From: a virus
Length of the DNA: 37,170 bases
Reading direction: 5' to 3' (one strand)
IMG/VR virus record: IMGVR_UViG_3300009137_000103
Span: 1-37,170 of that record
This document shows, piece by piece, positions 418 to 36,509 of the stretch (position 1 is its first letter; every line of letters starts with the position of its first letter). Both the position numbers and the translations under genes were made by a program. The notes below the pieces were generated by a model, which saw only the letters and a list, made by a program, of their open reading frames with translations, was not told where the DNA came from and searched no databases.

Positions 418-3400
418 TTAGACCTCCGAGATGATCAAAAATGCACCCTGTTCAGCGATCAAATCCAGCCTCGTGGCTGAGCTCGCCAGGTTCCCGCAAA
501 ATCCCCCCTCCGGAATGGCCCCCGTGCGGCCGATTTTGAGATCGCTCGGGAGCAGTGGCGGGGCCTCCAAAAGCCCGCTTTTCACGAGCACGCATTCGAC
601 GGTTTCAACGACCTCATCGACCCAGCGAAATGCCTGGCCATCGTTGATCCAAAACGGCGGGCCGCTCGGCGGATCTGTCGGGCAGCGATCAGCATCATCA
701 TCGCTGACGGCCTCGCGGCGTTGGCCGACTTGTTGGATGGTGCGCACGGCCAAAAATCCAGTGCTGCCAAGATTGACCAGGTCCAGAATTTCCACGGGCA
801 CGGCGAGCCAAAAGTCCGGATCAATCTCCGCGCGATACTCAGCGTCACTGCGCACGATAGCCAGAGCGTAAGGGCACCCGACCAATTGCCCGGTCTTGCT
901 CGCGCCGATCGTGGTCCATGTGGCCCAGTCACTCGGAGAATCTTCGTTTAACGTGCTCGCGACACCGCTCAAGCCATCGCCATAGGCTTTGCAGGTGCCG
1001 ACCGTTGTGCAATTGGTGCCATCCAACTCGGTCAGAGCCACCGCGCGATCGTCACGATAATCGTACGTGCGAAACTTGAAAACCATCGGCAGATCGAGGC
1101 GGACTTTGTCCAGCAGGTTGACCGCTTTAACCAGGCGATTGAACAGCTCCGCGTACATGATCGAATTGGGCAATGGCCCGAAGCCCGATGCATCGATCCG
1201 TTTGGCGAGCGGGAAACATCCAATCTCGCGGCCTTTGAACGCATCGAAACACAAATTCTCGAATCGATAATCGTAGAGGTTGCCCTCGCCGGTCCGGCAG
1301 GTGATGTCTTGTGAAGTGAGCCCGTCCACGAACCCTTCGCACATGGCGCGGAGATAAATCTCGGCTTGCAACATCGAATCGATCACGGCGCGGGTGTCGT
1401 GGGATTCCATCACGTCATTGTTGTCTTCGTAAACTTCGGGGAGCAAATGGCAGAAGAAAAAGTGCGGGTAACAACATCCGAATGGATTATCCGGCAAACC
1501 GTCAACGCCACTCGCAGTGCCACTGTCGCCGGTCTTGACGCTGCATTGTTTGGTGGGATCAGCCTGGTGCAGGACGTATTCCCGGACCGTGTTGTCGTCG
1601 GTGCGATAATCCTCATTGATCTCCGGGTCAGTGGCATACTCGTTGCGGAGCTGCTGCACCTCATCTGCGGACCACGTGCTCGGGTCTTTGTTCACCGCGG
1701 CCGGCGCATCCGGGTGCGATCGGAGCCGCTGCTTTAGCGTCACCTTGATGATCTGGTCAGGCGCCCAGTCGTCCACAACGCAGCTCTCGATCTCATAGGG
1801 CGCCTCATACACGCGGCAGCTCGAATAGAAGTTGTCGCTGCCGTAGCTGCGATTGGCGCCGAGCGTGTAGTTGTATTGGTCCGGCGCTTCCGGCGCGATG
1901 AACTGGAATTGCACGCTCATCGGGTTGCGGATCGGCATGAACGTATCGGCGTCCAGGCCGATGTTGTAGTTGTAGGAAACGTGCCGGCGCAACGCCGGCG
2001 GGGCCGTGCCACTGAAGAAATGGCAGCGCTGACACCAGGTGAAATAATCGCTGTACGCGTCGGGCTTCCAGATTGAGGTTTCGCTGGGATGATACCGTTT
2101 GGCTTCGATGAACAGCACCCATTCGTTGGTGAATCCTTGTTTGAGCGCGGCGTGTCGGATGCCGTCGTGGACGAAGATCTGGGCGTCGCCGGTGGCTTGG
2201 AAGCTGCCTGGCGAGTCGCCACGCCGGACAGGCGGGTCGCCTGTGCTACCGAGGGCGACGAAAGTCTGATCGTTGCCGTAGAGGTTGCCGGCATAGGCGA
2301 TCTGGCCGTTGGTTGTGCGGACGATGTAGGTCTCTCCTTCGATCAGCTCCCCACTGGCCACTGGATCGAGCGGCGGGGCGATGTTCGCAAACATATCGGC
2401 TCGAGTGTTGTTCAGGCCGAAGGCAAACCGTTTGAAGCGTAGGATGCTTTTGCCGCCGTTGACTTCGTAGCAAATCAGGTTCTGCCGGCGAACGATGCGC
2501 GCATGATCGCGGCTGAGGCGCCGTGCGGCGTCATAGACCGGATTGTCATTGACCCATTCGGCGATGTCGCGCACGGCGGCCACGCCCGTCCGATTCACAA
2601 CGCAACCATTGGTGAAGAAATCATCGCTGATCTCCTGCGCTTGCGCGTAATCGCGTCCGCGGCCGTCCACGCCGGCGCCGAAGGCCGTGCCGCCGGCCGT
2701 GGCGGCCAGGCGGCTCAACAAATATGCGTCCCAAGGTTGCGGCTTATATTCGAGCTGCTCGGTAAACTCGACGCTGATCGAGCCAATGCCGCTAAAGCGG
2801 GCTGGAGTCGCCAGGCGCACTGTGAGCGGGGCCGGCGTGGGACAATCCTCCAGCCAAAGCATGGCCTCGGCGGCGCCGTTTGCGTCCGGCTTGAGCCTCA
2901 GAGACCCGATCACCTTTGCGCCATCGACGATTTCGACACGCGCGGGTTCATGCAGATTTTTTGCCTTGGCGAACATCCCGGCCAAGACAAAGCCGGCGCG
3001 ATAGAAAAGCTGCGTCTCGCCGTCGGTAAAACGGGCCACGGTGCCATCGGGCACGAAGCTGCCGGCAAATTCGGCGCGCGGATAAAGCGCGAAGAGAAAG
3101 TCGCCGACCGCCACCCCAAGCGCGGGCGACAGATAATATTGGCGGTTGTAAAAGGCTTCGTTGTCGAAGGCGATCTTCTCGATGTCGAACGTGTCAGGGG
3201 TGCGCTGCATTGGTGTGCCGCGAAAATCCACAGCGAACGCCCACAAGGCGCGGGCCAGGTGATTGCCGTTAGCGTGCGCCAGGCGTCCGACTCCTTCGTA
3301 GGGGCCTTCAATCCAATCGGCCTTGAGGAACATGTCCAGGTTGTAATCGCACTCGCCTGTCCCAGTGCCGACGAACACGTAGTAATTAAATGGCCCTTCC

Positions 3401-4179
3401 CAGATCCCGATTACGTGCCCGCTGGCATGTTCGTCGGTGCCGCACGGACAGGAGCCGGCGTAAGTGATTCTCGGTTTGTCATCGACCGTGCTCAACGTGC
3501 CGTGATGCGCAGGCACTACGACGTCCGATCGGAGGCCACCGAAAAAGATTTCGTAGCTCGGTTGCCCGAGTCCGGTCTCCTCGGTCGAGCCGCAATCGGC
3601 CAGCAGCTCGACTGGCGTCGGGAAAAACCCCCCGTAACTCTTGCCGTGCGGACTGAACCACGGCTGCACGACCCGGAAAAAGTCCTGCGCTGCATCGAGA
3701 GCGGGGGTGCTCTGGGCGAATATGTCCGGGTCGTAAGCGCCGCGCTGTTTTTTGCCCAGTTCCCAAATACTTTCCAATGGCGGCAACTTTGGCGGCGGGA
3801 GCAATTCGACGCGTTGACTGAGCCGCTCATTCTCCGGCTCCATGCCGGGATTGCCGAACACGAAAGCCATCATTGGATTCGCCAGATTCGCGCCTTCAGG
3901 CTCGCCTGGGCCGCTCACCGGCCAGGTCGTACCGGCGTGGTATTCGGGATCCAGATGTTGATAGATATCGAAGAACTCCGCCTGCGGCGGGAAGACGTAT
4001 CCGCCTTCACCCGGATTACGGACCTGGCGCCACAAATTGAACCACCACATGATGACCCGCCAGGGGACCATCTGAAAGGCGCGCAGCCGATCGTTGAACG
4101 CACGCGCCAGCTTGTTGTGCTGGGTGCTGGTGATTGGATCGCCGGGAATGACTTCGAGCGCTTTGGTGAAGGAAAGCAT
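418..4179 (-). CDS. Large tail/baseplate-like protein, 1253 aa
   Basis: The largest gene in the window. The start is taken at MLSFTKALEV, 7 bases after the histidine kinase stop; a longer frame to 4257 would overlap the kinase end. No family is recognised with certainty. The position at the end of the late unit, after tape measure and distal tail genes, and the size suggest a tail tip, baseplate or receptor-binding component. The sequence is rich in aromatic residues, Asp/Asn and cysteines (for example CPCG near residue 250 and clustered Cys near residues 710 and 900), which may mean disulphides or metal sites. A palindromic repeat lies in frame at 2208-2250, coding a short Gly-Asp-Pro-rich stretch. 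It could also be an exported or effector protein carried late. Confidence 0.7.
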   Translation of the reverse strand: MLSFTKALEVIPGDPITSTQHNKLARAFNDRLRAFQMVPWRVIMWWFNLWRQVRNPGEGGYVFPPQAEFFDIYQHLDPEYHAGTTWPVSGPGEPEGANLANPMMAFVFGNPGMEPENERLSQRVELLPPPKLPPLESIWELGKKQRGAYDPDIFAQSTPALDAAQDFFRVVQPWFSPHGKSYGGFFPTPVELLADCGSTEETGLGQPSYEIFFGGLRSDVVVPAHHGTLSTVDDKPRITYAGSCPCGTDEHASGHVIGIWEGPFNYYVFVGTGTGECDYNLDMFLKADWIEGPYEGVGRLAHANGNHLARALWAFAVDFRGTPMQRTPDTFDIEKIAFDNEAFYNRQYYLSPALGVAVGDFLFALYPRAEFAGSFVPDGTVARFTDGETQLFYRAGFVLAGMFAKAKNLHEPARVEIVDGAKVIGSLRLKPDANGAAEAMLWLEDCPTPAPLTVRLATPARFSGIGSISVEFTEQLEYKPQPWDAYLLSRLAATAGGTAFGAGVDGRGRDYAQAQEISDDFFTNGCVVNRTGVAAVRDIAEWVNDNPVYDAARRLSRDHARIVRRQNLICYEVNGGKSILRFKRFAFGLNNTRADMFANIAPPLDPVASGELIEGETYIVRTTNGQIAYAGNLYGNDQTFVALGSTGDPPVRRGDSPGSFQATGDAQIFVHDGIRHAALKQGFTNEWVLFIEAKRYHPSETSIWKPDAYSDYFTWCQRCHFFSGTAPPALRRHVSYNYNIGLDADTFMPIRNPMSVQFQFIAPEAPDQYNYTLGANRSYGSDNFYSSCRVYEAPYEIESCVVDDWAPDQIIKVTLKQRLRSHPDAPAAVNKDPSTWSADEVQQLRNEYATDPEINEDYRTDDNTVREYVLHQADPTKQCSVKTGDSGTASGVDGLPDNPFGCCYPHFFFCHLLPEVYEDNNDVMESHDTRAVIDSMLQAEIYLRAMCEGFVDGLTSQDITCRTGEGNLYDYRFENLCFDAFKGREIGCFPLAKRIDASGFGPLPNSIMYAELFNRLVKAVNLLDKVRLDLPMVFKFRTYDYRDDRAVALTELDGTNCTTVGTCKAYGDGLSGVASTLNEDSPSDWATWTTIGASKTGQLVGCPYALAIVRSDAEYRAEIDPDFWLAVPVEILDLVNLGSTGFLAVRTIQQVGQRREAVSDDDADRCPTDPPSGPPFWINDGQAFRWVDEVVETVECVLVKSGLLEAPPLLPSDLKIGRTGAIPEGGFCGNLASSATRLDLIAEQGAFLIISEV
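2208..2250. repeat. R5 palindromic repeat inside the 1253-aa gene
   Basis: A GC-rich repeat of the form GCGAGTCGCC ... GGCGGGTCGCC.G.GCTACC. On the minus strand it encodes GSTGDPPVRRGDSP, nearly the same peptide as the copy in the portal gene (GSAGDPPAVAGDSP), so both copies are inserted in the same orientation and frame. Confidence 0.8.
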
Positions 4180-4186
4180 TTTGCGC

Positions 4187-5686
4187 TCAGGCCCCGCATA
4201 CTTGTTGCAGCTTGCTGAGGAGCTGCTCGGCGCTGAAAGGTTTGCCCAGGGCAGCATCGGGTTTGGCCGCCGCCACTTCCTCGGCGTTGCTGCCGGCGCC
4301 AGTAATGCAGAGGATTTTCACCTCCGGCTCGATCGCGCGGAGCTGCCCGATTAACGCCACGCCGCTCATACCCGGCATCATCAGATCTGTGACGACGACG
4401 GTGATCGCATCGGCATGATCCCGATACAATGCCAACGCGACTGAGGCGCTACGCGCGGCCAGGACATGATAGCCGTAGCTTTCCAGCAACGTCCTGGTCA
4501 GCTCGCGCATGCCGTCCTCATCATCGACCAGGAGCAATGTCCGGCCATTGCCATGCGGCGGGATCGGCGCGGCCTTTGCCTCGTGCGTCCCGATGACGCG
4601 TGTCGGCGCCGGCAACAGCACGCTGAATTTGGTGCCAATGCCTGGGATGGTGACCAGGTCGATGTAGCCATTGTGCCCCTTGACGATTTTCAGGACATTC
4701 GCCAGACCCAGGCCGGTGCCGCTCTTTTTGGTCGTGAAGAACGGCTCGAAGATTCGCGCGGCAATCTCCGGCCTCATGCCTGGTCCGTTGTCGGCCACGC
4801 TGATGTGGACGTAGCGGCCGGAGACAATCTCACCGTTAGACAAGCGATGATCGCGCAGCTCGATCGCGTCCGCGATGATATCGATCAGGGGCTTGGCGGG
4901 CGCGGGCCCCATGGCAAGCATCGCATCACGCGCGTTGATACACAGATTCAGGATGACCTGCTGCAACTGGGTCGAGTTGCCGGAAATGTCCGGCAGATTG
5001 GCCTTGATACTGTGCCGAAGCTCGATGCTTTTACCGATCGTATGCCGAAGGAAATCCAGCAGTTGCCCCAACAGTTGGCCGAGCGCAATTGGCCGCTGGA
5101 TGCCGTTTGTGCCGCGCACGAATTCGAGGAGCTGCTCCAGCATTTCCGCTTGCCGTTGGAAGGATTGTTCGATCGCGTCCAGTAGCCGCCCCTGTTCTTC
5201 GGATAAGCCCGGCCGTAGCATCGAGACTGCCAGCGTGCCGGGGCCGACGGCGTTGTTCAGATCGTGCACGATGCCGGAGGCGAGCGCGCCGATATCTTCC
5301 ATCCGCTGGGCGCGGAGCAATTGCAGTTTGTCCTGGCGCTCCCGATGCGCGCGTTGCACCGCAATGGGCAGCAGTTCCCAATCCGCTTTTCCGATGTAAT
5401 CAGTGGCGCCCGCCTTGATCACCTCGACGGCTTTGGTGACGGTGATTGTGCCGGAGAAGACGATGATCGGCGTTTGCGGCGCGCGTTCCAGGGCCAGCTT
5501 GAGGGCTTCATCGCCGTTGAGCTGGGGCAAACTGAAATCGAGCATGATAATGTCCCAGGGCATGCTGAGCGCGTTCCGGAATTGATCCCGTGATGATGCG
5601 CGTTCTACGGTCGCCAGCTCGCGCAGCGCCCGCATCACGAGGAGGGAATCGTCGTCGTTGTCTTCGAGCAGTAGGATTTTTAGCAT
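4187..5686 (-). CDS. Soluble hybrid histidine kinase, REC-HisKA-HATPase-REC
   Basis: A 499-aa protein. Residues 1-110 are a receiver domain with acidic pocket (LLLEDNDDD) and phospho-acceptor D50 in MLDFSLP. Residues 125-200 hold the dimerisation/phosphoacceptor domain with H141 in GIVHDLNN. Residues 240-360 are the HATPase domain with N box ([11 protein letters not shown]), G1 (DNGPGM), F box (FEPFFTTK) and G2 (GTGLGL). Residues 380-499 are a second receiver with DDE at 388-390, D434 in VTDLMMP and K482 in GKPF. All catalytic positions are present and no membrane segment is seen, so it should be an active cytoplasmic kinase. The start at MLKILLLED avoids an upstream palindromic repeat. It ends 7 bases before the next late gene, so it is probably co-transcribed with the tail genes. 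Confidence 0.93.
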
Positions 5687-6139
5687 TGGGGTAGCGCGGG
5701 CGGCATGGCACGTGCCCAATCGGTCTGGAAGCGCAGCGAGGCTGTTCGGCGAGTCCCGACTCGGAGTCGGGACCGAGTCGGTCGCGCTACCCGTTGGCAT
5801 TCGATTTGCAGCATCGATTTGTTGCTCGTTTTTTCATCTGCGTGCAATCCCACCGCGGGACGCGTGCCTTGCTTCACAGTCGCCTGCCAAAATCGCGTCC
5901 CGCACTTTATTTATAGGCCGATCAGTTGCGTTTGACAGATCGGCGGGCGCGGGACCGAAACGCCGGAGTTACCGCGCCCGCCATGCCTGGCGGTGCCTCA
6001 ATCTTTGTCTCAGTCTTATTCACACTCGTACTCTTAACTCTTACTCCCGCTGGCCCCGACATCGGGATGTCGGGGGCTCACAGAGCCGCGTTCCGGAGCG
6101 CGAGTCTGCGACTCGCAGCAACTTCACACAAACCGCTCC
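5687..6139. repeat. Repeat-rich spacer with R5, R3 and R4 copies
   Basis: About 450 bp between the small gene at 6140 and the kinase. It holds an R5-like hairpin repeat (5748-5793), inverted GCGGGACGCG/CGCGTCCCGC segments near 5855-5905, an R3 palindrome (6054-6076) and an R4 half copy (6078-6095). No convincing gene is seen. The open frames across it on either strand are GC-driven. It is the largest gap inside the late unit and could contain a separate promoter for the kinase, though I see no clear -35/-10 pair. Confidence 0.6.
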
Positions 6140-6334
6140 TCACGCCCAGCGGGCGACACGGCCGCGGCCGCCGCGACTTCCGATTTGCGGCATGGGCCGG
6201 CGCGTCACCCCGCGCGTGGTATGGCTCGTCAGGAGCCCGGCTGTCTTCTGCGGAGTCAACGAGTTCAGCTTGGTGCGCAAATCGCGCAGATGCATCGCGA
6301 TCCGGCCGCTGGGCAATGGCATTGGGAGGTTCAT
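6140..6334 (-). CDS. Possible small tail-region protein
   Basis: A 64-aa frame starting MNLPMPLP, basic (pI clearly high), with a short amphipathic stretch HLRDLRTKLNSL and a Gly/Arg-rich end. It sits 32 bases after the distal tail gene in the same direction. Small proteins at this position occur in some phages, but no family is recognised. An overlapping 93-aa frame (6078-6359) runs through repeats and is less likely. Low confidence. Confidence 0.35.
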   Translation of the reverse strand: MNLPMPLPSGRIAMHLRDLRTKLNSLTPQKTAGLLTSHTTRGVTRRPMPQIGSRGGRGRVARWA

Positions 6335-8987: not shown

Positions 8988-8995
8988 CGGGAGGC

Positions 8996-9067
8996 TTTAC
9001 GCGAATTGTCGCGACTGGCTCCCGCGAATTTCCCGATTCGCGTTCCTTAGCGTCAATTCGCGTAAAA
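8996..9067. repeat. R1 intergenic palindromic repeat, copy a
   Basis: A roughly 72-bp element starting TTTACGCGAATTGTCGCG and ending TTCGCGTAAA, with an internal GATTCGCGTTCCTTAGCG block. The termini are inverted repeats. It fills the gap between two late genes. Confidence 0.85.
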
Positions 9068-9074
9068 AGTTCGG

Positions 9075-10547: not shown

Positions 10548-10561
10548 TTCAGGAACGGAGG

Positions 10562-10632
10562 CTTCACGCGAATTGTCGCGAATTGTCGCGAACATCCAGA
10601 TTCGCGTTCATTAGCGTGAATTCGCGTAAAAA
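10562..10632. repeat. R1 palindromic repeat, copy b
   Basis: The same family as the copy at 8996, with the GAATTGTCGCG unit doubled at the left. It fills the spacer before the tail completion gene. Confidence 0.85.
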
Positions 10633-10650
10633 GGTTCGGTGAGTTAGCGT

Positions 10651-12135: not shown

Positions 12136-13008
12136 TCATGGTATGATGGCGCGGTTCATGTCCGATTGGTATTGTTGAACGCCGTGATAATAAAATGTTT
12201 GTCGGGTTGGCGGAATGGCTGTGCCAAAGGTGTAATAACTGAGAGTCCTGCTCGTGGGACTATTCAACGAACCCGATGCATTGATCCCGTGAACGAACTG
12301 GGAATTGCCGTCGATGGCTGGTGTGGTCCCAACGTCCGTGCTACTACTCAATATGGATGAGCCATTCTTGTAGAGTGTGCGGCTTGATTGCCCGTTCTTC
12401 ACTGCAAGATAAAATCCGGTGCGCGGCGATGCATCGGCAGCACTGATTTGAGAAGCAGCGTCGTCATAATACATGTAACAGTTGCCATCTATCCAACCCA
12501 TGAGGAAATAGTTGACGAATCCGCCTGCTGCCGTGCTACCAATTATTCCGCCAACCTCCGCCTTGTTCGTCCGCACGTAAACACCCTGGTGAATATTGGT
12601 TGCCGTGCAATAGGCGCTTGACGCAACACCAGTGCCGAGGAACTTCGTAAGACCATCCCCAGTTAGCCCCGTCGTCTCACTGTAATCCGCCGCCACGAAA
12701 GCTGTGAACGTATCCGTCGTGTTTCCCAATGCGGAGCCACCAGGATACTTATTGATGAGCGGGCAAACGAGTGCGTTAGTCGTATTGCCAGCGTACGCCC
12801 CTGCTCTCGCAATTCGCTGGCGCAAATCATGTGTCTTGGTAAAGATGACAAGGCGCGTGGCTGCGTTATAGGAATGTGCGGATACCGTACCGCCGTTTGC
12901 CGGGACACGTATCTTGGCCCAGTTATAGGCGTCTGAATCCCAGGCGTTGAAAAATCCGAATGCTTGTGCGTTCAGATGGCAGACGAGTAGGAGAGCGAAG
13001 GATTTCAT
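12136..13008 (-). CDS. Fibre-like exported protein, LamG-type beta fold likely
   Basis: A 290-aa protein with an ATGA overlap with the upstream 712-aa gene. The N-terminus (MKSFALLLVCHLNAQA) looks like a Sec signal peptide with cleavage after AQA. The rest is a Ser/Thr/Asn/Gly/Tyr-rich beta protein with an arrangement like concanavalin/LamG folds (FTAFVAADYS ... FYLAVKNGQSS). Paired with the long repeat protein upstream, it could be the receptor-binding tip of a fibre. Base composition is visibly lower in GC than its neighbours, suggesting recent exchange. A signal peptide is unusual for a phage fibre. Confidence 0.6.
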   Translation of the reverse strand: MKSFALLLVCHLNAQAFGFFNAWDSDAYNWAKIRVPANGGTVSAHSYNAATRLVIFTKTHDLRQRIARAGAYAGNTTNALVCPLINKYPGGSALGNTTDTFTAFVAADYSETTGLTGDGLTKFLGTGVASSAYCTATNIHQGVYVRTNKAEVGGIIGSTAAGGFVNYFLMGWIDGNCYMYYDDAASQISAADASPRTGFYLAVKNGQSSRTLYKNGSSILSSSTDVGTTPAIDGNSQFVHGINASGSLNSPTSRTLSYYTFGTAIPPTRQTFYYHGVQQYQSDMNRAIIP

Positions 13009-20899: not shown

Positions 20900-21336
20900 A
20901 AAGGTGCTTCCGGCATCTTGCCGGAAGAAGAATTGAGTGCAGCCCCGACATCCGATGTCGGGGCAGCACCTTGGGGGTGCGGGCTCAAGGGCGGGGGGCT
21001 ATGGTCATCCGTCCTTAGCGTAAGAATGCCTGTAAAGGCCGTGCCGCGCGCAAATTTAGCCCTTCCCGTCGAGCCTGTGACCAAGGAATCGGATATGGGC
21101 GGGTGGTCCTTTTTCCAGCGCCTGGTCCGGCACAAGTTCCCGCAAAATGCGGCTCCCGGAGTTTTTGGAATGAATCGATGGCCGCATTCGACGCAGTTCC
21201 TTGGGCCTGGGCGGAACTGGCGCGGCCGTCTCAGGGTCCATGCTTGGACCCGGCAATCATCCGAGCAAAATCGTTTTGTCGCGCGCTTCGGCGTGAAGGC
21301 CGTTCCGCAGACCGGGCATGGGATCGGTTGCTTCAT
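20896..21336 (-). CDS. Double zinc-ribbon protein between TerL and portal
   Basis: A 146-aa protein. Two Cys4 units are clear: CPVCGTAF...RFCSDDC (residues 7-28) and CVECGHRF...AAFCGNLC (residues 48-69), each CxxC-x12-CxxxC, typical of small zinc-binding proteins. The C-terminal 60 residues are Pro/Ser-rich and run through an R3 repeat in frame (APTSDVGAAL). It overlaps TerL (ATGA) and portal (ATGA), so it belongs to the packaging operon and may bind DNA or aid terminase. Function not known. Confidence 0.65.
   Translation of the reverse strand: MKQPIPCPVCGTAFTPKRATKRFCSDDCRVQAWTLRRPRQFRPGPRNCVECGHRFIPKTPGAAFCGNLCRTRRWKKDHPPISDSLVTGSTGRAKFARGTAFTGILTLRTDDHSPPPLSPHPQGAAPTSDVGAALNSSSGKMPEAPL
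20943..20963. repeat. R3 palindrome inside zinc-ribbon gene
   Basis: A 21-bp R3 palindrome with the CAGCACCTTG tail, inserted in frame in the C-terminal part of the zinc-ribbon gene. Confidence 0.85.
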
Positions 21337-22829
21337 CCCGCCAAACTCCTTTCACGGCGCTCGGCGAGCACCTGGTTGCGATGGCTGTCCGGCACGATGA
21401 TCCGGCCGATCGCCGACGGGAAACTGCCGGCATGAACGCATAGCGCCAGGCCGTTGGTCCGATCGGCGTGGCCATCCTCGGATTGCGGCGCGCGATAGGT
21501 GACGCTGCCCGCCGCGGTAACGACCCGCTGCATGCTGTGCAGGTCTTCACGCACCAGGCGGTTGATCGGGATCCGAAGCTTGCGGCTCTCGAAGGCCATC
21601 TTGAGTTTGGGGAAAATCTGCAGCTTGAATTGGTTGGTCATCACGCACAGCTCGATCTTGCCGAACAGGTCCGCATCCGGTTTCCATTCGCCGAATTCCT
21701 TGACCAGGTAATCGCCCATACCGATGCCCGGCCCGGTATAATCGAGCGCAACACGCCGCGCTTTGCGGATGCGCGGGCGGAGGTTGTCGATCTGGTCCGG
21801 GGTGCTCATGTTTTGCAGCTCGAGCACTTCGCGTGTGGCCTGCACGTCGCCGATCATTTCGGCAGCCCAGGAGACGGTGAGGTTTTTCTTGCGGCCGTAA
21901 TCGATGCCCAGGTCAACCGGGAAAGGCGTGGTCGATTCCCAAAATTCGGCTGGCGCGGCCGTGTGCGCCTCCGGACTTTCGCACAGGGCAATCAGGTCAT
22001 AGGGCAACAGAACCGAAGCGGCATCGAGGAATTGACATTCGAATTCCTGCGCCCAGCCGTCGGGATCATTGAGCGCTTCCTTGAGCTCCTCGATATTGAC
22101 GGGCAAGCCTTCCTGCACGGCGCGATAAATATCCACGTAATGACAGCTCCATTTGGCTTTGGGCTGTTGATAGTTCTTGCTCCAGAGTTCATGGAACTTG
22201 TTGCCGATGCCGTTCGGGGTCGAGATGAGCCGGACCCGTTTGACCCCGCCGCGGAGCGGGTTGGTGATGCTGGGCAGGATCGCGCGCCAGGTGGCATCCG
22301 GATTTTCGAAGAAGGCAAATTCGGTGAGCAAAATGTTAGCGGAGAAACCGCGCACGGTGTCGGGCTTGCCGGGCACGGCAATGACGCGCGAACCGTGCGG
22401 GAAAATGATGGTGCCGGATTTGAGCAGGGCCTCGGCGCTCTTGGTTTCGCGTTCTTCGAGCACATCGGCAATGGTCAGTTTGTAGGCTTCAGCCCAGTCT
22501 TTCCATTTGTTGAGTGACTCGAGGGCCTGGCGTTCGGAGGGGGCGCCGATGAGCCAATCGACTTTGTTGTTGTCCAGCTCGTGCTGGACGCAATCGCGGA
22601 TGCCTTCTTCGCCGCTGGAGAAGTCTTTGCCGACCTGGCGGCTCATGAGGCCGATCTTCCAGCGGGCATCGTCATCGGCCCAGGAGCGCTGGTAGGGCAG
22701 AAGCAGACCCCGACATCCGATGATGTCGGGGCGCTCCGGAGCGGGACCGGCGGGGCCGGCATTGGGGCTGTGCGCATCAGCCTTTCTGCCGGTCCCACCG
22801 TCAGTGTCGCTTGTTGAAAATGTGTCCAT
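21333..22829 (-). CDS. Terminase large subunit (TerL), Mu gp28-like
   Basis: A 498-aa protein. The ATG overlaps the last base of the small subunit stop (TAATG). The ATPase core begins near LLPYQRSWADDD (residue 43), with a Walker A-like SRQVGKD (residues 63-69), a Walker B-like ILLTEFAFF, and a coupling segment RVRLISTPNG. The nuclease part has VDLGIDYGRKKN and a late Asp-rich block. It packages DNA by headful-type translocation and cleavage. The N-terminal 42 residues are low complexity and contain an R3 repeat in frame. Confidence 0.85.
   Translation of the reverse strand: MDTFSTSDTDGGTGRKADAHSPNAGPAGPAPERPDIIGCRGLLLPYQRSWADDDARWKIGLMSRQVGKDFSSGEEGIRDCVQHELDNNKVDWLIGAPSERQALESLNKWKDWAEAYKLTIADVLEERETKSAEALLKSGTIIFPHGSRVIAVPGKPDTVRGFSANILLTEFAFFENPDATWRAILPSITNPLRGGVKRVRLISTPNGIGNKFHELWSKNYQQPKAKWSCHYVDIYRAVQEGLPVNIEELKEALNDPDGWAQEFECQFLDAASVLLPYDLIALCESPEAHTAAPAEFWESTTPFPVDLGIDYGRKKNLTVSWAAEMIGDVQATREVLELQNMSTPDQIDNLRPRIRKARRVALDYTGPGIGMGDYLVKEFGEWKPDADLFGKIELCVMTNQFKLQIFPKLKMAFESRKLRIPINRLVREDLHSMQRVVTAAGSVTYRAPQSEDGHADRTNGLALCVHAGSFPSAIGRIIVPDSHRNQVLAERRERSLAG
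22708..22731. repeat. R3 palindrome inside TerL N-terminus
   Basis: A 24-bp R3 copy with an extra GAT in the centre. It encodes RPDIIGCRG just before the conserved ATPase core of TerL. Confidence 0.85.
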
Positions 22830-23374
22830 TAGCTCATGCCGAAGATGGCGCGCAGGCGATGTTGTTTCTCTTCGGGCGAAAGTGCCTTGTCGCTGATGGT
22901 CACCTCGGCTTCCTCGGCCTGCCTGGCTTTCTGTTCCAGTATCGCCACACGGCGTTCTTCCAGGTGCCGGTCGGCGCGTTGCTCCTGCACTTTCAGATAG
23001 GTCATCACCGGGGTCATGGCTTTGGTGGCGACCTTGAGCAGTTCCGGGTTGGCTGTGGCCTGCAGGCTCAGTTGCATGATCAAGACCCGATGCAGTTTGA
23101 TCAGCGTCTCCACTTCCGGCGGCGCGTCCTTGGCGAATTGTTTCTCGACCCGTTTCACGGCCTGAGCGCCCGTAGCGATCTTCTCCAGGACGCGGTCCTG
23201 AAGGCGTTGTTGCTGGCGTTTCTCCCACCAGTCCGACAGCAGCGAGGGCGAGACTGAGAGCGAGTAAAGATTCTGCAAGCGGGCGCGGGCATCGTCCAGG
23301 GTGAGGTTGTCGGCGAACCAGCGCTCCAGCTCCGCGCTGTACGGATCGAGCTTGGATTTTTTCTGTTTGCGCAT
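22829..23374 (-). CDS. Terminase small subunit, DUF3486 (Mu gp27)-like
   Basis: A 181-aa highly charged helical protein starting MRKQKKSKLDPYSAELERWF. The helix-turn-helix-like start (LTLDDARARLQNLYSLSVSPSLLSDWW) and long coiled coil follow the DUF3486 layout, where Mu gp27 recognises DNA for packaging. It lies directly before TerL with a one-base overlap. An R1 repeat separates it from the gene upstream. Confidence 0.75.
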   Translation of the reverse strand: MRKQKKSKLDPYSAELERWFADNLTLDDARARLQNLYSLSVSPSLLSDWWEKRQQQRLQDRVLEKIATGAQAVKRVEKQFAKDAPPEVETLIKLHRVLIMQLSLQATANPELLKVATKAMTPVMTYLKVQEQRADRHLEERRVAILEQKARQAEEAEVTISDKALSPEEKQHRLRAIFGMS

Positions 23375-23383
23375 TCACTGAGG

Positions 23384-23455
23384 CTTTACGCGAAGGGTCG
23401 CGAATGGCCGCGGATTTCCCAGATTCGCGTTCCTTAGCGTTAATTCGCGTAAAAA
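23384..23455. repeat. R1 palindromic repeat, copy e
   Basis: A full-length R1 element of about 72 bp, in the spacer between terminase small subunit and the 85-aa gene. Confidence 0.85.
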
Positions 23456-23457
23456 GT

Positions 23458-23715: not shown

Positions 23716-23722
23716 GCGGGGG

Positions 23723-23795
23723 CTTTACGCGAATTATCGCGAATTTCCGCGACCGGTCCTAATTGGTCTTCATTCGCGTGAATTCGCATAAAAAA
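23723..23795. repeat. R1 palindromic repeat, copy f
   Basis: A slightly diverged R1 element (end TTCGCATAAA instead of TTCGCGTAAA) between the 85-aa gene and the receiver gene. Confidence 0.8.
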
Positions 23796-23810: not shown

Positions 23811-24263
23811 TCATGGGGTGTGATGGTTTGAGCGGCTCATTTGGGCGGTGTCATGGGCGATCCGGGCGGCTTGCTTCAGGTTCAGCAGACTTTGCTTGTG
23901 CAATACTGCCCGGCTGATGGCGCCGAACATTTGTTCGCCATCCCGATCGTCGCGGCCTTTGACCAGGTACCCGGAGGCGCCTTCAAGGATATGCTGGGCC
24001 ACGGCGCCGGGTCCGTCCCGTCCGGTGATGATCACGATCGAGGCCGCGCGCGTGATGGTGGAAAAGGTCTTGAGTGTCTCGCTCCACTTCGAGTCCGGCA
24101 AAGATAGATCCAGCAGGATGCACCAGTAACTTTTGCTGAGGGCTTCGTTGATCCCTTCGGCGAGCGTGCCGACTGCGTCCATGATACAGAACGGCGCCAG
24201 GCGCTCCTGCAATGCCTCGCGGTAAAGCGGGTCGTCTTCGATCAGTAAAACGCGTTCTCTCAT
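23811..24263 (-). CDS. Stand-alone response-regulator receiver protein
   Basis: A 150-aa single receiver domain. It has the acidic pair in LLIEDDPLY, phospho-acceptor D52 in LLDLSLPDS, a Thr in IITGRDG and the Lys in GYLVKGRD. About 30 residues of helical tail with no output domain follow. The start MRERVLLIED overlaps the upstream gene by ATGA, so it belongs to the late unit. It may take phosphate from the hybrid kinase at 4187-5686 or from host kinases. Such single-domain receivers act by binding partners. The fit is very good for the family and unexpected for a phage. Confidence 0.9.
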   Translation of the reverse strand: MRERVLLIEDDPLYREALQERLAPFCIMDAVGTLAEGINEALSKSYWCILLDLSLPDSKWSETLKTFSTITRAASIVIITGRDGPGAVAQHILEGASGYLVKGRDDRDGEQMFGAISRAVLHKQSLLNLKQAARIAHDTAQMSRSNHHTP

Positions 24264-24616
24264 TTGCGCCGGCTCATCTCGATGCGGGTCAAATGCACGA
24301 GCACTTCGCTGATGCGGGTATGGAGTTTCTCCGCCCGCGCCTCGGCGGCGGCATTGGTAATTTCCTTGTCGTGCGCGAGCTCGCGCCGAACCTCGACAAC
24401 CGATTCGCGCAGCTCGCCGGCCAGCCCATCGACTTCCTCGCGCACCTCCTTCCATTCGCTGCGGGTGACGTAATCGCCTTTGACCTGGTACGTGTCCCGT
24501 GGCGGCGGGTGTTCTTTGAACCGATCGAGCAGGCGCATGACCTGGTTGATGCCCATGACGACCCCGACCAGGCATCCGAGCCAGCCAGCCAATTCCAGTG
24601 GTGTGGGTGTGGGCAT
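24260..24616 (-). CDS. Membrane-anchored coiled-coil protein, Mu gp25/DUF2730-like
   Basis: A 118-aa protein with one N-terminal membrane segment (LAGWLGCLVGVVMGINQVM, residues 9-27) and then a long charged helix (residues 50-118). The layout fits DUF2730 proteins such as Mu gp25 and also resembles inner-membrane spanins. It is followed by the receiver gene with ATGA overlap. I favour the gp25-like call by position. Confidence 0.6.
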   Translation of the reverse strand: MPTPTPLELAGWLGCLVGVVMGINQVMRLLDRFKEHPPPRDTYQVKGDYVTRSEWKEVREEVDGLAGELRESVVEVRRELAHDKEITNAAAEARAEKLHTRISEVLVHLTRIEMSRRK

Positions 24617-24726: not shown

Positions 24727-24921
24727 TCATTCGATTTGCCATTCCGGGCCTTTGAACTGGCCATCGGCGCGGGTCTTCAACGATTGATAACGGCTCAAGA
24801 CGCGCTTTTGTTCCTCGATGCTGATCTCACCCCTGAGCCTGAGCCGCTCCACTTCCGGGATGAGCGCTTCGACCAGGGCGAGGCCGGCGTTAAGGGCCTG
24901 GATTATTATTTGCGGGGCCAT
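24727..24921 (-). CDS. Small helical late protein, 64 aa
   Basis: The start is taken at MAPQIIIQALNAGLALVEAL, 32 bases inside the end of the lipoprotein gene. It is a mostly helical protein with a charged C-terminus (ISIEEQKRVLSRYQSLKTRA). No membrane segment or known family. Its place in the lysis/packaging region and its typical codon pattern support a real gene. Confidence 0.55.
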   Translation of the reverse strand: MAPQIIIQALNAGLALVEALIPEVERLRLRGEISIEEQKRVLSRYQSLKTRADGQFKGPEWQIE

Positions 24922-25387
24922 ATTTTGTGAGGTGCGCGGTGGCTTCAGCGAGCGCCTGGCGTATGACGCGCAGCGCGTCATTCAACGCGGTGCGGTTGTC
25001 CGGAGTCGGGCTGGCGGCATACGCCTCGCGCAGGCGCGTGGCGGCATCGGTCCATTCTTCGGCGTGGCGCCGGATGTTGTCGGCGGCTTGTCTGATCTCC
25101 GGGATCGCGGCCAGTGCTGCGCGATTGTTCCGTTCCCAGCTCACGAACACTTTGAACAGGTCGTAACCGGTGACGATGGATTGGTCCGCTTCGAACAGGA
25201 GCTTGGCTGCGGTGGGATCTGTGGTGAGCCCTTTGTCGCCGAGGTACGGGCTGGGATTGTCCGGCGTGCCTTTGCTCAACGTGCCGCAACTGGTGATGCA
25301 CAGGAGCACACTGAGGGAACAGAGGTGGAACCATCGTCGGTTAACTCCGGTTCCTCCGCTTCCTCCTGTTAAAAAAGTTGGGCTCAT
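24890..25387 (-). CDS. Late lipoprotein, outer-membrane spanin candidate
   Basis: A 165-aa protein. The N-terminus has a hydrophobic stretch LCSLSVLLCITSC ending in a lipobox (ITSC, Cys about residue 34). After a Pro/Gly linker the mature part is helical (about residues 65-165). It follows the holin-like gene with an ATGA overlap, so it could be an o-spanin or a lysis-related lipoprotein, though it is longer than most o-spanins. Its signal peptide is encoded by an R2 palindromic repeat (25300-25370). Confidence 0.6.
   Translation of the reverse strand: MSPTFLTGGSGGTGVNRRWFHLCSLSVLLCITSCGTLSKGTPDNPSPYLGDKGLTTDPTAAKLLFEADQSIVTGYDLFKVFVSWERNNRAALAAIPEIRQAADNIRRHAEEWTDAATRLREAYAASPTPDNRTALNDALRVIRQALAEATAHLTKYGPANNNPGP
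25300..25370. repeat. R2 palindromic repeat, copy c, coding a signal peptide
   Basis: An R2 element (CAGGAGCACACTGAGGGAAC ... TTCCTCCTGTTA) that lies within codons about 6-30 of the lipoprotein gene and encodes the hydrophobic core of its signal peptide. Confidence 0.75.
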
Positions 25388-25632
25388 TTTGTTTGATCGG
25401 TTGCAGGCAGTGTGGCTTGGATGGCTTCAATGTGTTCGTGCACGTGTTCCAGTGCTTTGTCGGTCTTCGTCACGCCCATGCGCAGGAAGGTGAGCCCGAG
25501 GAAACCGAACATGCCCATGATTTCTTCACTGGGGTTTTTGCCGGTGAATTGGCAGAGGGCCAGGTAACCGATCGCGGCGCCGGCGACCAGGTAGGTCTTT
25601 TTGCCGGAGAAGAATTGGAGCACTTCGTTCAT
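25384..25632 (-). CDS. Holin-like small membrane protein, 82 aa
   Basis: An 82-aa protein with two predicted membrane segments (TYLVAGAAIGYLALCQF, residues 13-29, and IMGMFGFLGLTFLRMG, residues 38-53) and a hydrophilic, His/Glu/Lys-rich tail, as in class II holins. It is the first gene of the tightly packed late unit. No endolysin gene is recognised nearby. Function inferred from topology and position. Confidence 0.6.
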   Translation of the reverse strand: MNEVLQFFSGKKTYLVAGAAIGYLALCQFTGKNPSEEIMGMFGFLGLTFLRMGVTKTDKALEHVHEHIEAIQATLPATDQTK

Positions 25633-30350: not shown

Positions 30351-30653
30351 TCCCAATCGGAAATCGTGAATCGTAAATCGAAAATGGAATTTGGCTGGGG
30401 TAAGGAGTCGGTGATAAACCGGTCGTGCGAGTCCTTGGCCGCGTCGCGGGCCAACTCACGGCGCAGTCAAGATTTCACTGGACTTTCTCCCAGCCCAATT
30501 CGTTTTGCCCCCCAACCGAAGCGCCCTGGCGAGCCACGTTCCGCGCGGCCTCACGCCGCGCGTAACGGGAGGCTTTACGCGAATTTCGCGAATTATCGCG
30601 AAGGGCCCCGATTCGCGTTCATTGGCGTCAATTCGCGTAAAAAATACGGCGCA
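30351..30653. repeat. Spacer with R1 copy i and a CGCGCGG hairpin
   Basis: A GC-rich hairpin CGCGCGGCC/CGCCGCGCG (30541-30562) is followed by a complete R1 element (30573-30645). The frame of the next gene runs open through all of it from 30366, but I take the start at 30654. Nothing else is evident. Confidence 0.6.
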
Positions 30654-32562: not shown

Positions 32563-33481
32563 CAAAGAGAAAGAGGAAGCCGCTGTGCACTCAGGAAAAC
32601 GTCCGCCAGACGATGACTCCGAGACCAAGCAGCATCCCCCTCAACAACTTGAACGTAGCCGTTCACCGGAGAATTGCAAGAACCGAGCCGTGATGGATGC
32701 GGTCGAGACTGTGGAGATCGCAACCCGCCTGGAGGAGATGTTTCACGACGCCCAGATGGGGCTCTGCCGCTTCATCGCCTTCGGCCTGTACGCCTACGAG
32801 GTCAAAGAGCTCAGGCTCAACCACGGCCAGTTTGGCGAGTGGATCAAGCAGCATTGTCAGCGTATCCCGTGGCGCACAGCCAATCATTATATGGCTCTGA
32901 CCAAGGGACTTCTGTATGCGTGCGGCTGCAAAATCGAGGACTATATCCAAATTCGCAAACGTTGCGAATTTGACCACGGCGGGGAGTTGATCCTCAAGGA
33001 CCCCTCTGAGCTTCCCGATTCAGCGCAGCCGCTCGCAATCAAGATGCGAGCGATGGTCGAGGGCAAGACGGCGCGCCAGTTGTTCCTGGAATTCAAGACG
33101 GCCGAGGATGTGAACGGTGAGCTGATGGTCCGCCGACCAGGCATCGGTGATGCCGCCTGGGAGAAATGGATGTGGGAATACCACCCGAACCTGATCAAGG
33201 AAGGCAAGGTGCCCGGCCGGCAGCATGTCAAGGCGGCGATCAAGAAGGAGTTCGACGCGTTCTGCCTTGAGCGGCAGCGGCGCAATCATGATCCGATCGC
33301 CGAAGCGAAAGCCAAACAGAAGTTCGCCGACGATCTCTGGGATGGCCTGGCGCAATCGCTTTGGAGGTGCCGGGATAAGTTGCACCTGTTGTCCGATCAT
33401 GTGCGGGATCAGGTGCTCGACGCGTGCGTGGAGACCAGTAATGCGATCCGGGCGATGAAGAAGGGGGGGAAACGATCATGA
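32552..33481 (+). CDS. DUF3102-like early protein, 309 aa
   Basis: The start has a good ribosome site (GAGAGGAG). After a disordered N-terminus (residues 1-50) the unit FGEWIKQHCQRIPWRTANHY (about residues 92-111) has the pattern of DUF3102, found in phage and plasmid proteins that may regulate host or replication. A charged C-terminal helix follows. It is coupled to MuA by ATGA. Confidence 0.6.
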   Translation: MNPDKEKEEAAVHSGKRPPDDDSETKQHPPQQLERSRSPENCKNRAVMDAVETVEIATRLEEMFHDAQMGLCRFIAFGLYAYEVKELRLNHGQFGEWIKQHCQRIPWRTANHYMALTKGLLYACGCKIEDYIQIRKRCEFDHGGELILKDPSELPDSAQPLAIKMRAMVEGKTARQLFLEFKTAEDVNGELMVRRPGIGDAAWEKWMWEYHPNLIKEGKVPGRQHVKAAIKKEFDAFCLERQRRNHDPIAEAKAKQKFADDLWDGLAQSLWRCRDKLHLLSDHVRDQVLDACVETSNAIRAMKKGGKRS

Positions 33482-35451
33482 GTTCCGAATTGAGTCCCGA
33501 TGTTGAAGGCGGGTGGCCTTCAACTGCGCCCGAGTCGGGCGCGCTACCCGAAGGCGCGGGCGCGCAGCCCTACGAAATTCCGCAGGCGGATGCGGCTGAG
33601 TTCGGCGCCTTGCAGGAAGGAGTGCGCGAGGAGGTGCTGTCATTGCTCGATGTGCTGAAGCAGATCGAGGCAAGGAAGAAAGTGGATGAGTCGTGCAAGT
33701 TTTTCGCCGCGGGTCTGCATCGGTCGTGGCATCGGTTGCGCGCGCAGTTTTATGCGTATCGGAAAACCCGCGATTGGCGGGTGTTGGTGAACCGTGTCCG
33801 GGCAGGCTTGTCGGAGCGGGATGAAGGATTGGCCCCGGCGTTTGTCGAGTTCTGGAAATCGCTCCTGGAGGAGAACAAGCGTAAGGATCAACCGGCCTGG
33901 CGCACGCTGATCTATATCTGGATACATCGCCGGCATCCGACCACGGGCAAGGTGCTGCGCGAGATCCCAGGGTATGCGTCCTGGCCGACGGCTGTTCCGC
34001 GCACGCGCCTGCCCAAGGGCTGGACGTACTCGAACCTGCGCAATTACGGGTTGACATTGTTCGAGCGGACCGCGGCGCGGATCGGGCGGAGCGCGGCGGC
34101 AGCGCATCGGCCGCTGGTGTTGATGACGCGGGCCGATCTGTGGGTCGGGTCGCATTACATGATCGATGACTTGTGGCACGATCATTTCGTGAATGTGCTC
34201 GATACCAAGAAGACGGGCCGGCCGCTGGAGTTCGGCGTGTTTGATCTGTATTCGGCGTGTAAATTTTCCTGGGGTATGCGGGTGCGGACTGAGAATGACG
34301 CGACGGGCCGGATGGAGGGGCTCAAGGAGGAGATGATGCGCTATTTGCTGGCCAGCGCGTTGATGGAGTACGGTTATTCGCCACGTGGCACAATCCTTGT
34401 CGTTGAGCACGGCACGGCGGCGGTGCGGGATGAGCTGGCCAAGGTGCTCTATGATTTGAGCGGGGGCAAAATTGTCGTGGCGCGCTCGGGCATCGATGGT
34501 GGCGGGGATGCGCTCGGGCTTTATGAGGGGCGTGGCAAAGGCAATTTCCGGCTCAAGGCCGCTTACGAGTCTTCACACAATCTGACGCATAATGAGTTTG
34601 GCGCGTTGCCGGCCCAGACCGGGCGTAGCGTCGAGACGCGGCCTGAAGGCACGCACGGTGTGCTCAAGCGCAATGATGCGTTGCTCAAGGCGATGATCGC
34701 CTTGGAGGCGGAGCGGCCGGAGCTGATGAAGGAGCTGCGGTTCGATGTGTGTGAGTTTGGCTGGTTCCTCGCCTTCGCGATGGCGGTCTATGAGCGGATC
34801 AATTCGCGCACCGACCATGAGCTGGAGGGGTGGGCGGCCAATATCACGATGGAGCATGGCCTGGCGCGGCGGTTGTCGCCCAGGGAAGTGTGGGCGCGCG
34901 GGCGGCGTGAGTTGATTCGGTTGTCGCCGGCCGCGATCGCGATAGTGCTCGGGCCGGATCTTGGGTTCGAACGGCGCGTGCTGGGCAATATTATCGAGGT
35001 GGCGCAAAAGGAAGTGTCGTGTGACCCGCTGTTTTTCGATGCGCATGAGTTGAAACCGGATAGGTACCGGCTGGTGCTCAATCCGTTTCGGCCGGATCGG
35101 TTGTTTGCCTTCAATGCGCGCGGCGGATTTGTGGCGGAGTGCCCGCGGCTGGATCGGGTGAGCCGGCTGGACCCGGAAGGGTTGCATCGGGCGAACGGGC
35201 GGGTGAAGCGGCTCGAGGGCGAGCTGCTCGCGCGCACGTGCGGGCGCAATGGGGCGGCGATGAAACAGCACATCGAGGATGCGCGGCATAACGCGGCATT
35301 GTTGGCCGGCGCGATTGAAGGGCCTGCGGCGCCGCTGGTCAGCAGTGAGGCCACGCTGGAGGATTTGCCTGACGTGGATTTAGGCGAGGAGTCCGGCGCG
35401 GATGCGTCGGTCGCCGATGATCAGTTGCGGGCATTGGAGGAGTTACTATGA
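33478..35451 (+). CDS. MuA-like DDE transposase
   Basis: A 657-aa protein with an ATGA overlap with the DUF3102-like gene and the MuB-like gene. The catalytic RNase-H-like domain spans about residues 215-400: the first acidic position is in YMIDDLWHDHF (D230/D231), the second in VVEHGTA (E310), the third in AAYESSH (E364). The D-to-second spacing (about 80) and the final gap of 54 fit MuA (67 and 56). In MuA the second residue is Asp; here it is Glu, so either the family uses D-E-E or my alignment is off. A beta-barrel region follows (about residues 490-560). An R5 hairpin lies in frame near residue 10-24. Confidence 0.85.
   Translation: MSSELSPDVEGGWPSTAPESGALPEGAGAQPYEIPQADAAEFGALQEGVREEVLSLLDVLKQIEARKKVDESCKFFAAGLHRSWHRLRAQFYAYRKTRDWRVLVNRVRAGLSERDEGLAPAFVEFWKSLLEENKRKDQPAWRTLIYIWIHRRHPTTGKVLREIPGYASWPTAVPRTRLPKGWTYSNLRNYGLTLFERTAARIGRSAAAAHRPLVLMTRADLWVGSHYMIDDLWHDHFVNVLDTKKTGRPLEFGVFDLYSACKFSWGMRVRTENDATGRMEGLKEEMMRYLLASALMEYGYSPRGTILVVEHGTAAVRDELAKVLYDLSGGKIVVARSGIDGGGDALGLYEGRGKGNFRLKAAYESSHNLTHNEFGALPAQTGRSVETRPEGTHGVLKRNDALLKAMIALEAERPELMKELRFDVCEFGWFLAFAMAVYERINSRTDHELEGWAANITMEHGLARRLSPREVWARGRRELIRLSPAAIAIVLGPDLGFERRVLGNIIEVAQKEVSCDPLFFDAHELKPDRYRLVLNPFRPDRLFAFNARGGFVAECPRLDRVSRLDPEGLHRANGRVKRLEGELLARTCGRNGAAMKQHIEDARHNAALLAGAIEGPAAPLVSSEATLEDLPDVDLGEESGADASVADDQLRALEELL
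33502..33550. repeat. R5-like hairpin repeat in MuA N-terminus
   Basis: GTTGAAGGC and GCCTTCAAC form a 9-bp hairpin, followed by GAGTCGGGCGCGCTACCC, the R5 end. It encodes VEGGWPSTAPESGALP in frame. Confidence 0.75.
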
Positions 35452-36509
35452 CTGAGCAGGAGCGACCGCGTGAGATCAATTTGTCCGGGGATACGGTGAC
35501 GCTCAAGACGGCCGATTATCCGGATGAGCATCGCAGCTTGTTGCGTTGGCTTTTTGCCTGGGCCAAGGAGCGGCAGTGGTCCTGGCAGGAGGCTGAGCAG
35601 GAAACAAAATTGTCGGTGACCACGCTCTATCGGATTTGGACGGGCAAATATCGGTACCAGGATAAGCATCCGAAGGCCGGTGAGTTGATTCCGCTGGATG
35701 GCATCTGCGAGCGGATCGCCCATTTCAAAGAGCTCGCTGAGGAGCGGGCCAGTTTGCGGCGATTGCCCTTCGTCGTCGAGACGAGCGTGTTCCGCAAGAT
35801 CGAGAAGCTGTGTCGGGAGACTCTGGTGATGCAGTCCATCTCGATGATCTACGGTGAATCGCAGATCGGCAAATCCGCCGCGCTCAAGGAAGTGGCCCGG
35901 CGCAATAATCACGGGAATACCACGTATGTGCTGACGCCGGCCAGCGCGGGTGTGCAGGGGTTGATCAAGGCGATCGGCGCTGCCTGCCATATCGCAGGCC
36001 ACACCAGTTACGATGTGTTGCGTGAGCGAGTGGGGAATTACCTGGATGATTCCAAGTTGCTGATCATCGATGAAATCCACGAGATTTTCGTTTCCTACTT
36101 TCGCGATTCGCGGCTGCGTTGTCTGAGTGTGTTGCGCCAGATGCAGGAGATGTCCGGGTGCGGCCTGGTGCTCTGCGGCACAAATGTGTTCCGGCACGAG
36201 CTTGAGCAGGGCGAGTTCGCGCAGTCCCTCAAGCAGCTCCGCAAGCGCGGGATTCTTGAGCTGCAACTTGAAAGTGTGCCCAGCGCGAAGGATATGGAGT
36301 TGATCGCTGCGCATTACCGGCTCGGGGCGCCCACCGGCGAGGCGGCGGAGCTGGCGAGCTGGATCGGCAAGGAGTTCGGGCTCGGCAAATATACGCGGTT
36401 CCTGGCGCGAGCGTCCCAGCTCGCCACCAAGAAGGGTGAACGGTTTGGCTGGCGGCATTTTTGTGATGTAGTCGCCATCGCCAATCGCATGAAGCAGGAG
36501 GCCAAATGA
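35448..36509 (+). CDS. MuB-like target-capture ATPase
   Basis: A 353-aa protein. The N-terminal 60 residues carry a helix-turn-helix (SWQEAEQETKLSVTTLYRIW), as in Mu B. The AAA+ core has Walker A IYGESQIGKSAAL (about residues 133-145) and Walker B LLIIDEIHEIF (about residues 203-213), then a sensor-like VLCGTNVF. MuB binds target DNA and activates MuA. It overlaps MuA by ATGA. The C-terminal part has the small helical domain. Confidence 0.85.
   Translation: MTEQERPREINLSGDTVTLKTADYPDEHRSLLRWLFAWAKERQWSWQEAEQETKLSVTTLYRIWTGKYRYQDKHPKAGELIPLDGICERIAHFKELAEERASLRRLPFVVETSVFRKIEKLCRETLVMQSISMIYGESQIGKSAALKEVARRNNHGNTTYVLTPASAGVQGLIKAIGAACHIAGHTSYDVLRERVGNYLDDSKLLIIDEIHEIFVSYFRDSRLRCLSVLRQMQEMSGCGLVLCGTNVFRHELEQGEFAQSLKQLRKRGILELQLESVPSAKDMELIAAHYRLGAPTGEAAELASWIGKEFGLGKYTRFLARASQLATKKGERFGWRHFCDVVAIANRMKQEAK

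Follow-up and report, generated by a model that had tools for sequence, protein, structure and literature searches.

The question raised by this locus is what a complete hybrid histidine kinase is doing among the structural genes of a virus, and whether it has a partner there. The window (the whole stretch of DNA analysed) is the 37,170-base IMG/VR virus record IMGVR_UViG_3300009137_000103. MuA-like and MuB/TniB-like genes lie on its plus strand, and a long minus-strand run contains terminase, portal, head protease, major head protein and tape-measure-like genes. Because of this gene content the phage is classed as Mu-like; it has both the MuA/MuB-type transposition genes and the Mu-type portal and head genes of a Mu-like transposable phage. 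In a genome scan with a portal alignment the bacterial-genome relatives of the portal were Verrucomicrobiota MAGs in five cases out of five, and Verrucomicrobiota are the bacteria infected by this virus.

The two transposition genes are far from the rest of the window in codon use (z 15.1 and 6.6), and the transposase is only 35% identical to that of the otherwise close relative G001, MuB being 86% identical. The right contig end (36821-37170) forms an inverted repeat of two 174-nt arms, 83% complementary and separated by 2 nt; it may have arisen by fold-back during assembly or be a genuine feature of the terminus. Repeats of the form TTTACGCGAATT...AATTCGCGTAAA are dispersed through the window in 7-9 copies per family and in both orientations (at 8990-9069, 10557-10633, 23379-23456, 23718-23795, 30568-30645 and other sites), as if a mobile repeat had spread between genes. 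A tandem pair of 192-nt copies, 83% identical to each other, lies at 14119-14502 within a 712-aa tail-fibre-like gene.

A sequence-only reading had described the kinase as a full REC-HisKA-HATPase-REC protein with all catalytic residues, H141 among them, with no membrane segment and with 7 bases between it and the next tail gene. All of this was borne out. Pfam domains, taken from a longer ORF (P0001), comprise two REC stretches (best E 2.4e-33), HATPase_c (3.3e-21) and HisKA (1.7e-8), all above cut-offs. The residues read from the sequence are E8/D9, D50 and K100 in the first REC, H141, N247/N251, D299 and GTGLGL at 323 in the core, and D389/E390, D434 and K482 in the second REC. The single chain thus carries HisKA with its phosphoacceptor histidine, the N, G1, F and G2 boxes of HATPase_c, and REC, as a hybrid histidine kinase does. 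In an alignment of six phage kinases H141, D50, K100, N247, N251, D299, D434 and K482 are invariant. A Kyte-Doolittle scan for membrane segments found none, the best 19-residue mean being 1.73, within the C-terminal REC. The start was taken as the ATG at 5686 because homologues begin there, an in-frame ATG being present also at 5800; the next gene begins with an ATG at 4179, after the 7-nt gap. The coordinates of these and other features are collected in the table.

Table. Features of the window discussed in the text (positions are those of the window).
Feature	Position	Strand	Basis or remark
1253-aa tail-region protein directly downstream of kinase	418..4179	-	75% identical in G001, 37% in G005
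Hybrid histidine kinase, 499 aa, REC-HisKA-HATPase_c-REC	4187..5686	-	ORF call, Pfam, alignment
C-terminal REC, D434, K482	4208..4534	-	Pfam, residues read
HATPase_c catalytic domain	4604..4978	-	Pfam
HisKA dimerisation/phosphoacceptor domain, H141	5102..5287	-	Pfam, residues read
N-terminal REC, about residues 1-113, D50, K100; proposed input receiver	5348..5686	-	Pfam (two REC stretches), alignment
Hairpin following the noncoding element	5853..5904	-	Arms differ from G001 and still pair (by eye, two sequences)
88-column noncoding element, predicted hairpins	5915..6001	-	95% identical to the same place in G001
64-aa gene	6140..6334	-	Similar small ORFs at the equivalent site in G001 and G005
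Terminase large subunit (ORF as listed)	21333..23378	-	ORF list, match
181-aa gene in the place of a small terminase subunit	22829..23374	-	Adjoins TerL, conserved
Standalone receiver, 150 aa, D52, K102, predicted 37-residue last helix	23811..24263	-	Whole-window REC scan, model
118-aa protein, one hydrophobic stretch and a helix-rich tail	24260..24616	-	Stop overlaps receiver start (ATGA, 4 nt)
165-aa lipoprotein-like gene of putative lysis cassette	24890..25387	-	Homologue follows kinase in L119; putative lysis role
82-aa holin-like gene	25384..25632	-	Putative function
MuA-like transposase and MuB/TniB-like ATPase	33478..36509	+	Marks phage as Mu-like

The closest known counterpart at the input end is bacterial. 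Over the first REC and the core (residues 3-359) the best PDB sequence match is LvrB (8vc9, E 1.3e-33), and the Pfam and PDB matches place an N-terminal REC, as sole input, joined by a helix to a HisKA/HATPase core, as in LvrB. In the model of the phage kinase a helix (100-157) runs on from the REC, at low confidence (local pLDDT about 50, pTM 0.39). Phosphorylation of the N-terminal REC activates LvrB of Leptospira, whose downstream partner, LvrC, carries an anti-sigma factor domain, a further point of difference (PMC13269768). Whereas the chain of LvrB ends after the catalytic domain, that of the phage protein goes on to a C-terminal REC, so the phage kinase may work like LvrB at the input, yet it is not an LvrB. 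Matches to CckA/VirA-like NCBIfam families are strong, those shown all falling below the family cut-offs; the HisKA-HATPase-REC core is common to these hybrid kinases and the phage protein, but the latter has an N-terminal REC in place of PAS or transmembrane input.

The placing of the kinase within a late operon, as originally proposed, needs one qualification: tight coupling is seen on its downstream side alone, towards the tail gene; this 1253-aa neighbour had no match in PHROGs or Pfam. Upstream, 680 nt separate the kinase from the stop of a 276-aa gene, and this region holds the 64-aa gene and a structured element. A search for a sigma-70-like promoter of its own, a weak test, found none. 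The element is 95% identical between the window and G001, against about 66-73% for the kinase DNA where this is alignable, and of 15,269 aligned stretches of 88 columns in the comparison of the two phages only 7 come up to this level. It folds into hairpins in both phages, with a 211-nt stretch giving z -2.0 (7 of 200 shuffles as stable). In the hairpin that follows, both partners differ between the two phages in 4 of the 10 pairs, as counted outward from the loop by eye; the pairs are out of register in the column alignment, and these paired changes are no more than suggestive. The element is, on comparison and folding of the sequences, conserved, structured and noncoding. Three possible identities for it were considered and discarded: a known RNA (no Rfam match above the gathering score, nor any in the whole window), a host repeat (0 of 387 Verrucomicrobiota genomes, in a search run without a positive control) and a widespread phage element (the exact core was found in one viral contig, that of G001).

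Complete kinases had been said to be rare in phages, in agreement with a tblastn search of 50,697 phage records in which 34 gave partial matches and none matched at least 80% of the query. The nearest relative, G001 (42.4 kb), is collinear with the window from the tail gene to MuB; identities are 75% for the tail gene, 50% for the kinase, 83% for the portal, 93% for the major head protein and 63% for a second signalling protein, the standalone receiver, and kinase and receiver occupy the same places as in the window. Two further contigs, G003 and G004, give percentages equal to those of G001, carry the receiver and do not extend to the kinase site; judged from these comparisons they are pieces of that phage. 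G002, more distant but also Mu-like, has different head and tail genes and a portal of the same kind (PHROG 113). Its kinase is 46-48% identical and lies inside a tail operon, with gaps of 4 nt to a 305-aa gene upstream and 7 nt to the gene of a tail assembly protein downstream. In G005 (portal 50%) the flanks of both sites are present without kinase or receiver, and a 120-aa ORF stands where the kinase would be. The kinase is thus kept at this place in G001 and within a tail operon in G002, and most relatives lack it.

Full-length kinases at 34-36% identity were also found in L003-L006 and L119, those of L004, L005 and L006 being identical over the part used in the tree. The kinase of L003 begins 3 nt after a holin-like gene, that of L006 overlaps a lipoprotein-like gene by 4 nt, and that of L119 is followed by a lipoprotein-like gene homologous to the 165-aa gene of the window (25%, 7e-10). 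Tail-fibre pieces are common to the window and L003, L005 and L006: these unrelated kinase-bearing phages repeat portions of two tail genes, of 712 and 290 aa (12136-15143), which are unlike the rest of the window in codon use (z 6.1 and 7.7). They read as a module exchanged between phages, perhaps together with the kinase.

The kinase tree (54 rows) groups the window with G001 and G002 in one clade (100/100) and L003-L006 with L119 in another (100/99). Both lie within a set (100/99) that also contains nine closely grouped Verrucomicrobiota kinases and L137, and the core of the window kinase is about 40-43% identical to host kinases. A close host donor was sought in 387 Verrucomicrobiota genomes and none was found, the best full-length match being 38% (L137), with no recognisable phage gene in the 4.5 kb examined around it. 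Absence from relatives, recent insertion, a promoter of its own and host-type codon use had been named beforehand as findings that would refute the original reading of the kinase. The first was observed in most relatives. A recent insertion from the host was rejected on the synteny with G001 and on codon use that is ordinary for the window (z 1.7); furthermore, the three kinases of window, G001 and G002 fall in one fully supported clade and the gene is therefore not a recent arrival.

A whole-window scan for REC domains found one gene besides the kinase. On one side it is flanked by the putative lysis cassette, to which we assign the 82-aa holin-like gene, the 165-aa lipoprotein-like gene and the gene of the 118-aa membrane/coiled-coil protein; on the other come an 85-aa gene and then the two terminase genes, of which the presumed small subunit (181 aa) gave no family match. 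With an acidic pair, a phosphoacceptor Asp, a Lys and no output domain it has the features of a single-domain response regulator. The last helix of a REC domain usually has about 15 residues, and here it carries an extra 20-30: in the AlphaFold model (mean pLDDT 84.6) the REC ends in a 37-residue helix (109-145). This model fits 6oaq, a REC-bearing dual sensor histidine kinase, over 147 residues at 2.4 A (Z 16.2), which is among the best full-length fits, although many generic RECs score as high or higher in Z over about 120 residues and the fold search as a whole returned mostly generic REC relatives. The three standalone receivers group together in the receiver tree (86/76), and they cluster with the N-terminal and not the C-terminal RECs of the kinases (100/99). 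The receiver of G002, 34-36% identical, lies before the presumed small terminase and overlaps that next gene by 4 nt. Among 387 Verrucomicrobiota genomes a close cellular relative was seen in one, as a 549-aa frame at E 1e-14.

A search with the receiver alone returned 12 loci, namely G001, G003, G004, G002 and eight others. In three near-identical contigs (L152-L154) such a receiver is the last part of a fusion protein, preceded by two hydrophobic stretches and a segment that looks helical, the fusion gene lying in a phage late region (at 9542-10387 in L153); the terminase and portal of these contigs are related to those of L119 (33% and 35%). L157, a 5.2 kb contig, has a 147-aa receiver at 1546-2363 between genes read by eye as terminase-like and portal-like, and this receiver shares 4 nt with the gene of a 125-aa protein that has a single hydrophobic stretch. 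The remaining four (L155, L156, L158 and L159, 209-236 aa) look like ordinary response regulators and were set aside. Receivers therefore adjoin, overlap or are fused to small membrane or helical proteins in several phage groups. These membrane proteins are weakly alike (20-25% outside G001), the 118-aa partner in the window has no family match, and in G002 another gene separates the membrane protein from the receiver. HATPase_c matches were also found in two of the eight further records (G465 and G466) and in none of L152-L154, whose receiver without a kinase shows that a partnership of the two is not obligatory.

The joint distribution of HATPase_c and REC was assessed in a census of 50 records (44 portal relatives, 2 tail-gene relatives, G001, G002, G005 and G052), from which G003 and G004, as copies of G001, and L115, with a weak portal match, were left out. 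Many of these records are fragments, in which a single absence is no proof. HATPase_c was present in four (G001, G002, G052 and G015) and REC in three (G001, G002 and G052); a standalone REC was present in two, G001 and G002, which are the two with a full kinase of the window clade. Nearly all others had neither kinase nor receiver. G002 and G052 had been found by kinase searches, so that the one feature of theirs not tied to the route of discovery is the receiver of G002. The G015 match was rejected as a phage kinase of this kind, being a HisKA ORF without REC, cut by the contig end, with an N-terminus that by eye is PAS-like; it is probably host flank.

Kinase and receiver, then, are both present and conserved, and we infer phosphotransfer and a target for it: the best reading is a REC-controlled phosphorelay that the phage encodes and that is tuned to lysis or packaging. 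That the two genes together make up a two-component circuit resident in the phage and employed along with its late genes is a tentative proposal, to which we give somewhat less than an even chance. The two occur together in three Mu-like lineages (window, G001 and G002); against the pairing, these three are the only ones, G002 was found through its kinase, and the genes are 18 kb apart in the window. In L003-L006 and L119 no standalone REC was seen in the partial records that carry the kinase. In the proposed circuit the N-terminal REC would be the input, as in the REC-controlled LvrB. Since there is no other sensor domain, this input would be phosphate delivered to D50, whose state may be set by a host kinase or a small phosphodonor and would switch autophosphorylation of H141. 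Phosphate would then pass to the C-terminal REC, the standalone receiver or both. Given its grouping with the N-terminal RECs and its long last helix, the receiver could accept phosphate from H141 or else associate with the kinase's own input module. Its coupling to a membrane protein suggests an output at the membrane, within the lysis/packaging cassette: the long helix would alter the state of the adjacent protein, and lysis or packaging would be timed to host physiology.

Other readings of the locus must be weighed against this phosphorelay. The kinase could rewire host signalling, as had been suggested from the start, acting as a kinase or phosphatase on host response regulators with the receiver as phosphate sink or adaptor. 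Cross-talk is plausible for a protein whose core lies in the Verrucomicrobiota clade, and the kinase occurs without the receiver in other phages; this reading leaves unexplained, however, why the receiver sits beside lysis and terminase genes, why it is coupled, or in another phage group fused, to a membrane protein of the phage and why it tracks the kinase in the Mu-like relatives, and we consider it unlikely, if a serious competitor. Rather less probable still is a moron-type cargo, a host signalling gene that benefits the lysogen and is expressed from the prophage and not in the lytic late programme. Separate expression could be driven from the 680 nt upstream, whose conserved structured element the two syntenic kinase-bearing phages share, and the absence of the gene from most relatives, with the 120-aa ORF in its stead in G005, would suit such cargo; the tight spacing to the downstream tail gene (on both sides in G002), the negative result of the weak promoter test and the position of the second gene, the receiver, within the late region close to the terminase do not.

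Packaging of the kinase as a virion component, or as a tail-associated enzyme delivered with the DNA, draws on its position, which in the window, G001 and G002 is among tail genes. The homologous kinases of L003 and L006 adjoin holin-like and lipoprotein genes instead and no recognised targeting feature was seen in the kinase; we judge this reading very improbable. That the gene is host DNA, brought in by contamination or a chimeric contig, is hardly credible: host genes may be present on some kinase-bearing viral contigs, as is likely at the end of G015, but the gene order around the window kinase recurs in a relative that was assembled independently, and the kinase is present also in a distant phage, in tail operons with conserved flanks.

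It is already known that phages inhibit or borrow single bacterial signalling proteins, and phage histidine kinases are in print. The AgrC of phiCDHM1 is encoded and transcribed by the phage, but belongs to a host-derived quorum-sensing cassette, has no identified receptor domain and is not accompanied by a response regulator in the phage (PMC3901668). A pelagiphage histidine kinase lies in a phage gene cluster beside curli (T8SS) genes; it is part of that curli cluster, and the section of the source on which we rely mentions no paired receiver (PMC9599517). A receiver fold is also present in the divergent REC (cREC) of jumbo phages, which is described as always absent from histidine kinase systems and is linked to NAD and cyclic nucleotide enzymes (PMC7824862); in the window, by contrast, there is a kinase, and the REC residues conform to the ordinary phosphoreceiver type. 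Searches of open-licence PMC papers gave no account of a kinase and a receiver conserved as a pair among the late genes of phages.

If a conserved kinase and receiver are kept as a pair with the late genes, the virus would be running a phosphorelay of its own. A bolder form of the proposal, which we hold to be rather doubtful, is that this phosphorelay governs the exit of the virus itself: a soluble REC-gated kinase, made with the virion proteins, would read host phosphorylation and, by phosphorylating the phage receiver, signal through it, as a separate coupled subunit or a fused domain, to a membrane protein of lysis or packaging. Were this true, it would be an input to lysis timing distinct from holin clocks and arbitrium-type peptide systems, and the occurrence of kinase only, receiver only and both would represent modular use by several unrelated phage groups. 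The overlap and fusion of REC and membrane protein provide a concrete, testable target, and a further regulatory feature open to testing is the conserved element that precedes the kinase. If right, the proposal would allow a direct test of the idea that phages time lysis or packaging by sensing host physiology through the flow of phosphate, here in Verrucomicrobiota, a phylum whose phages are little studied.
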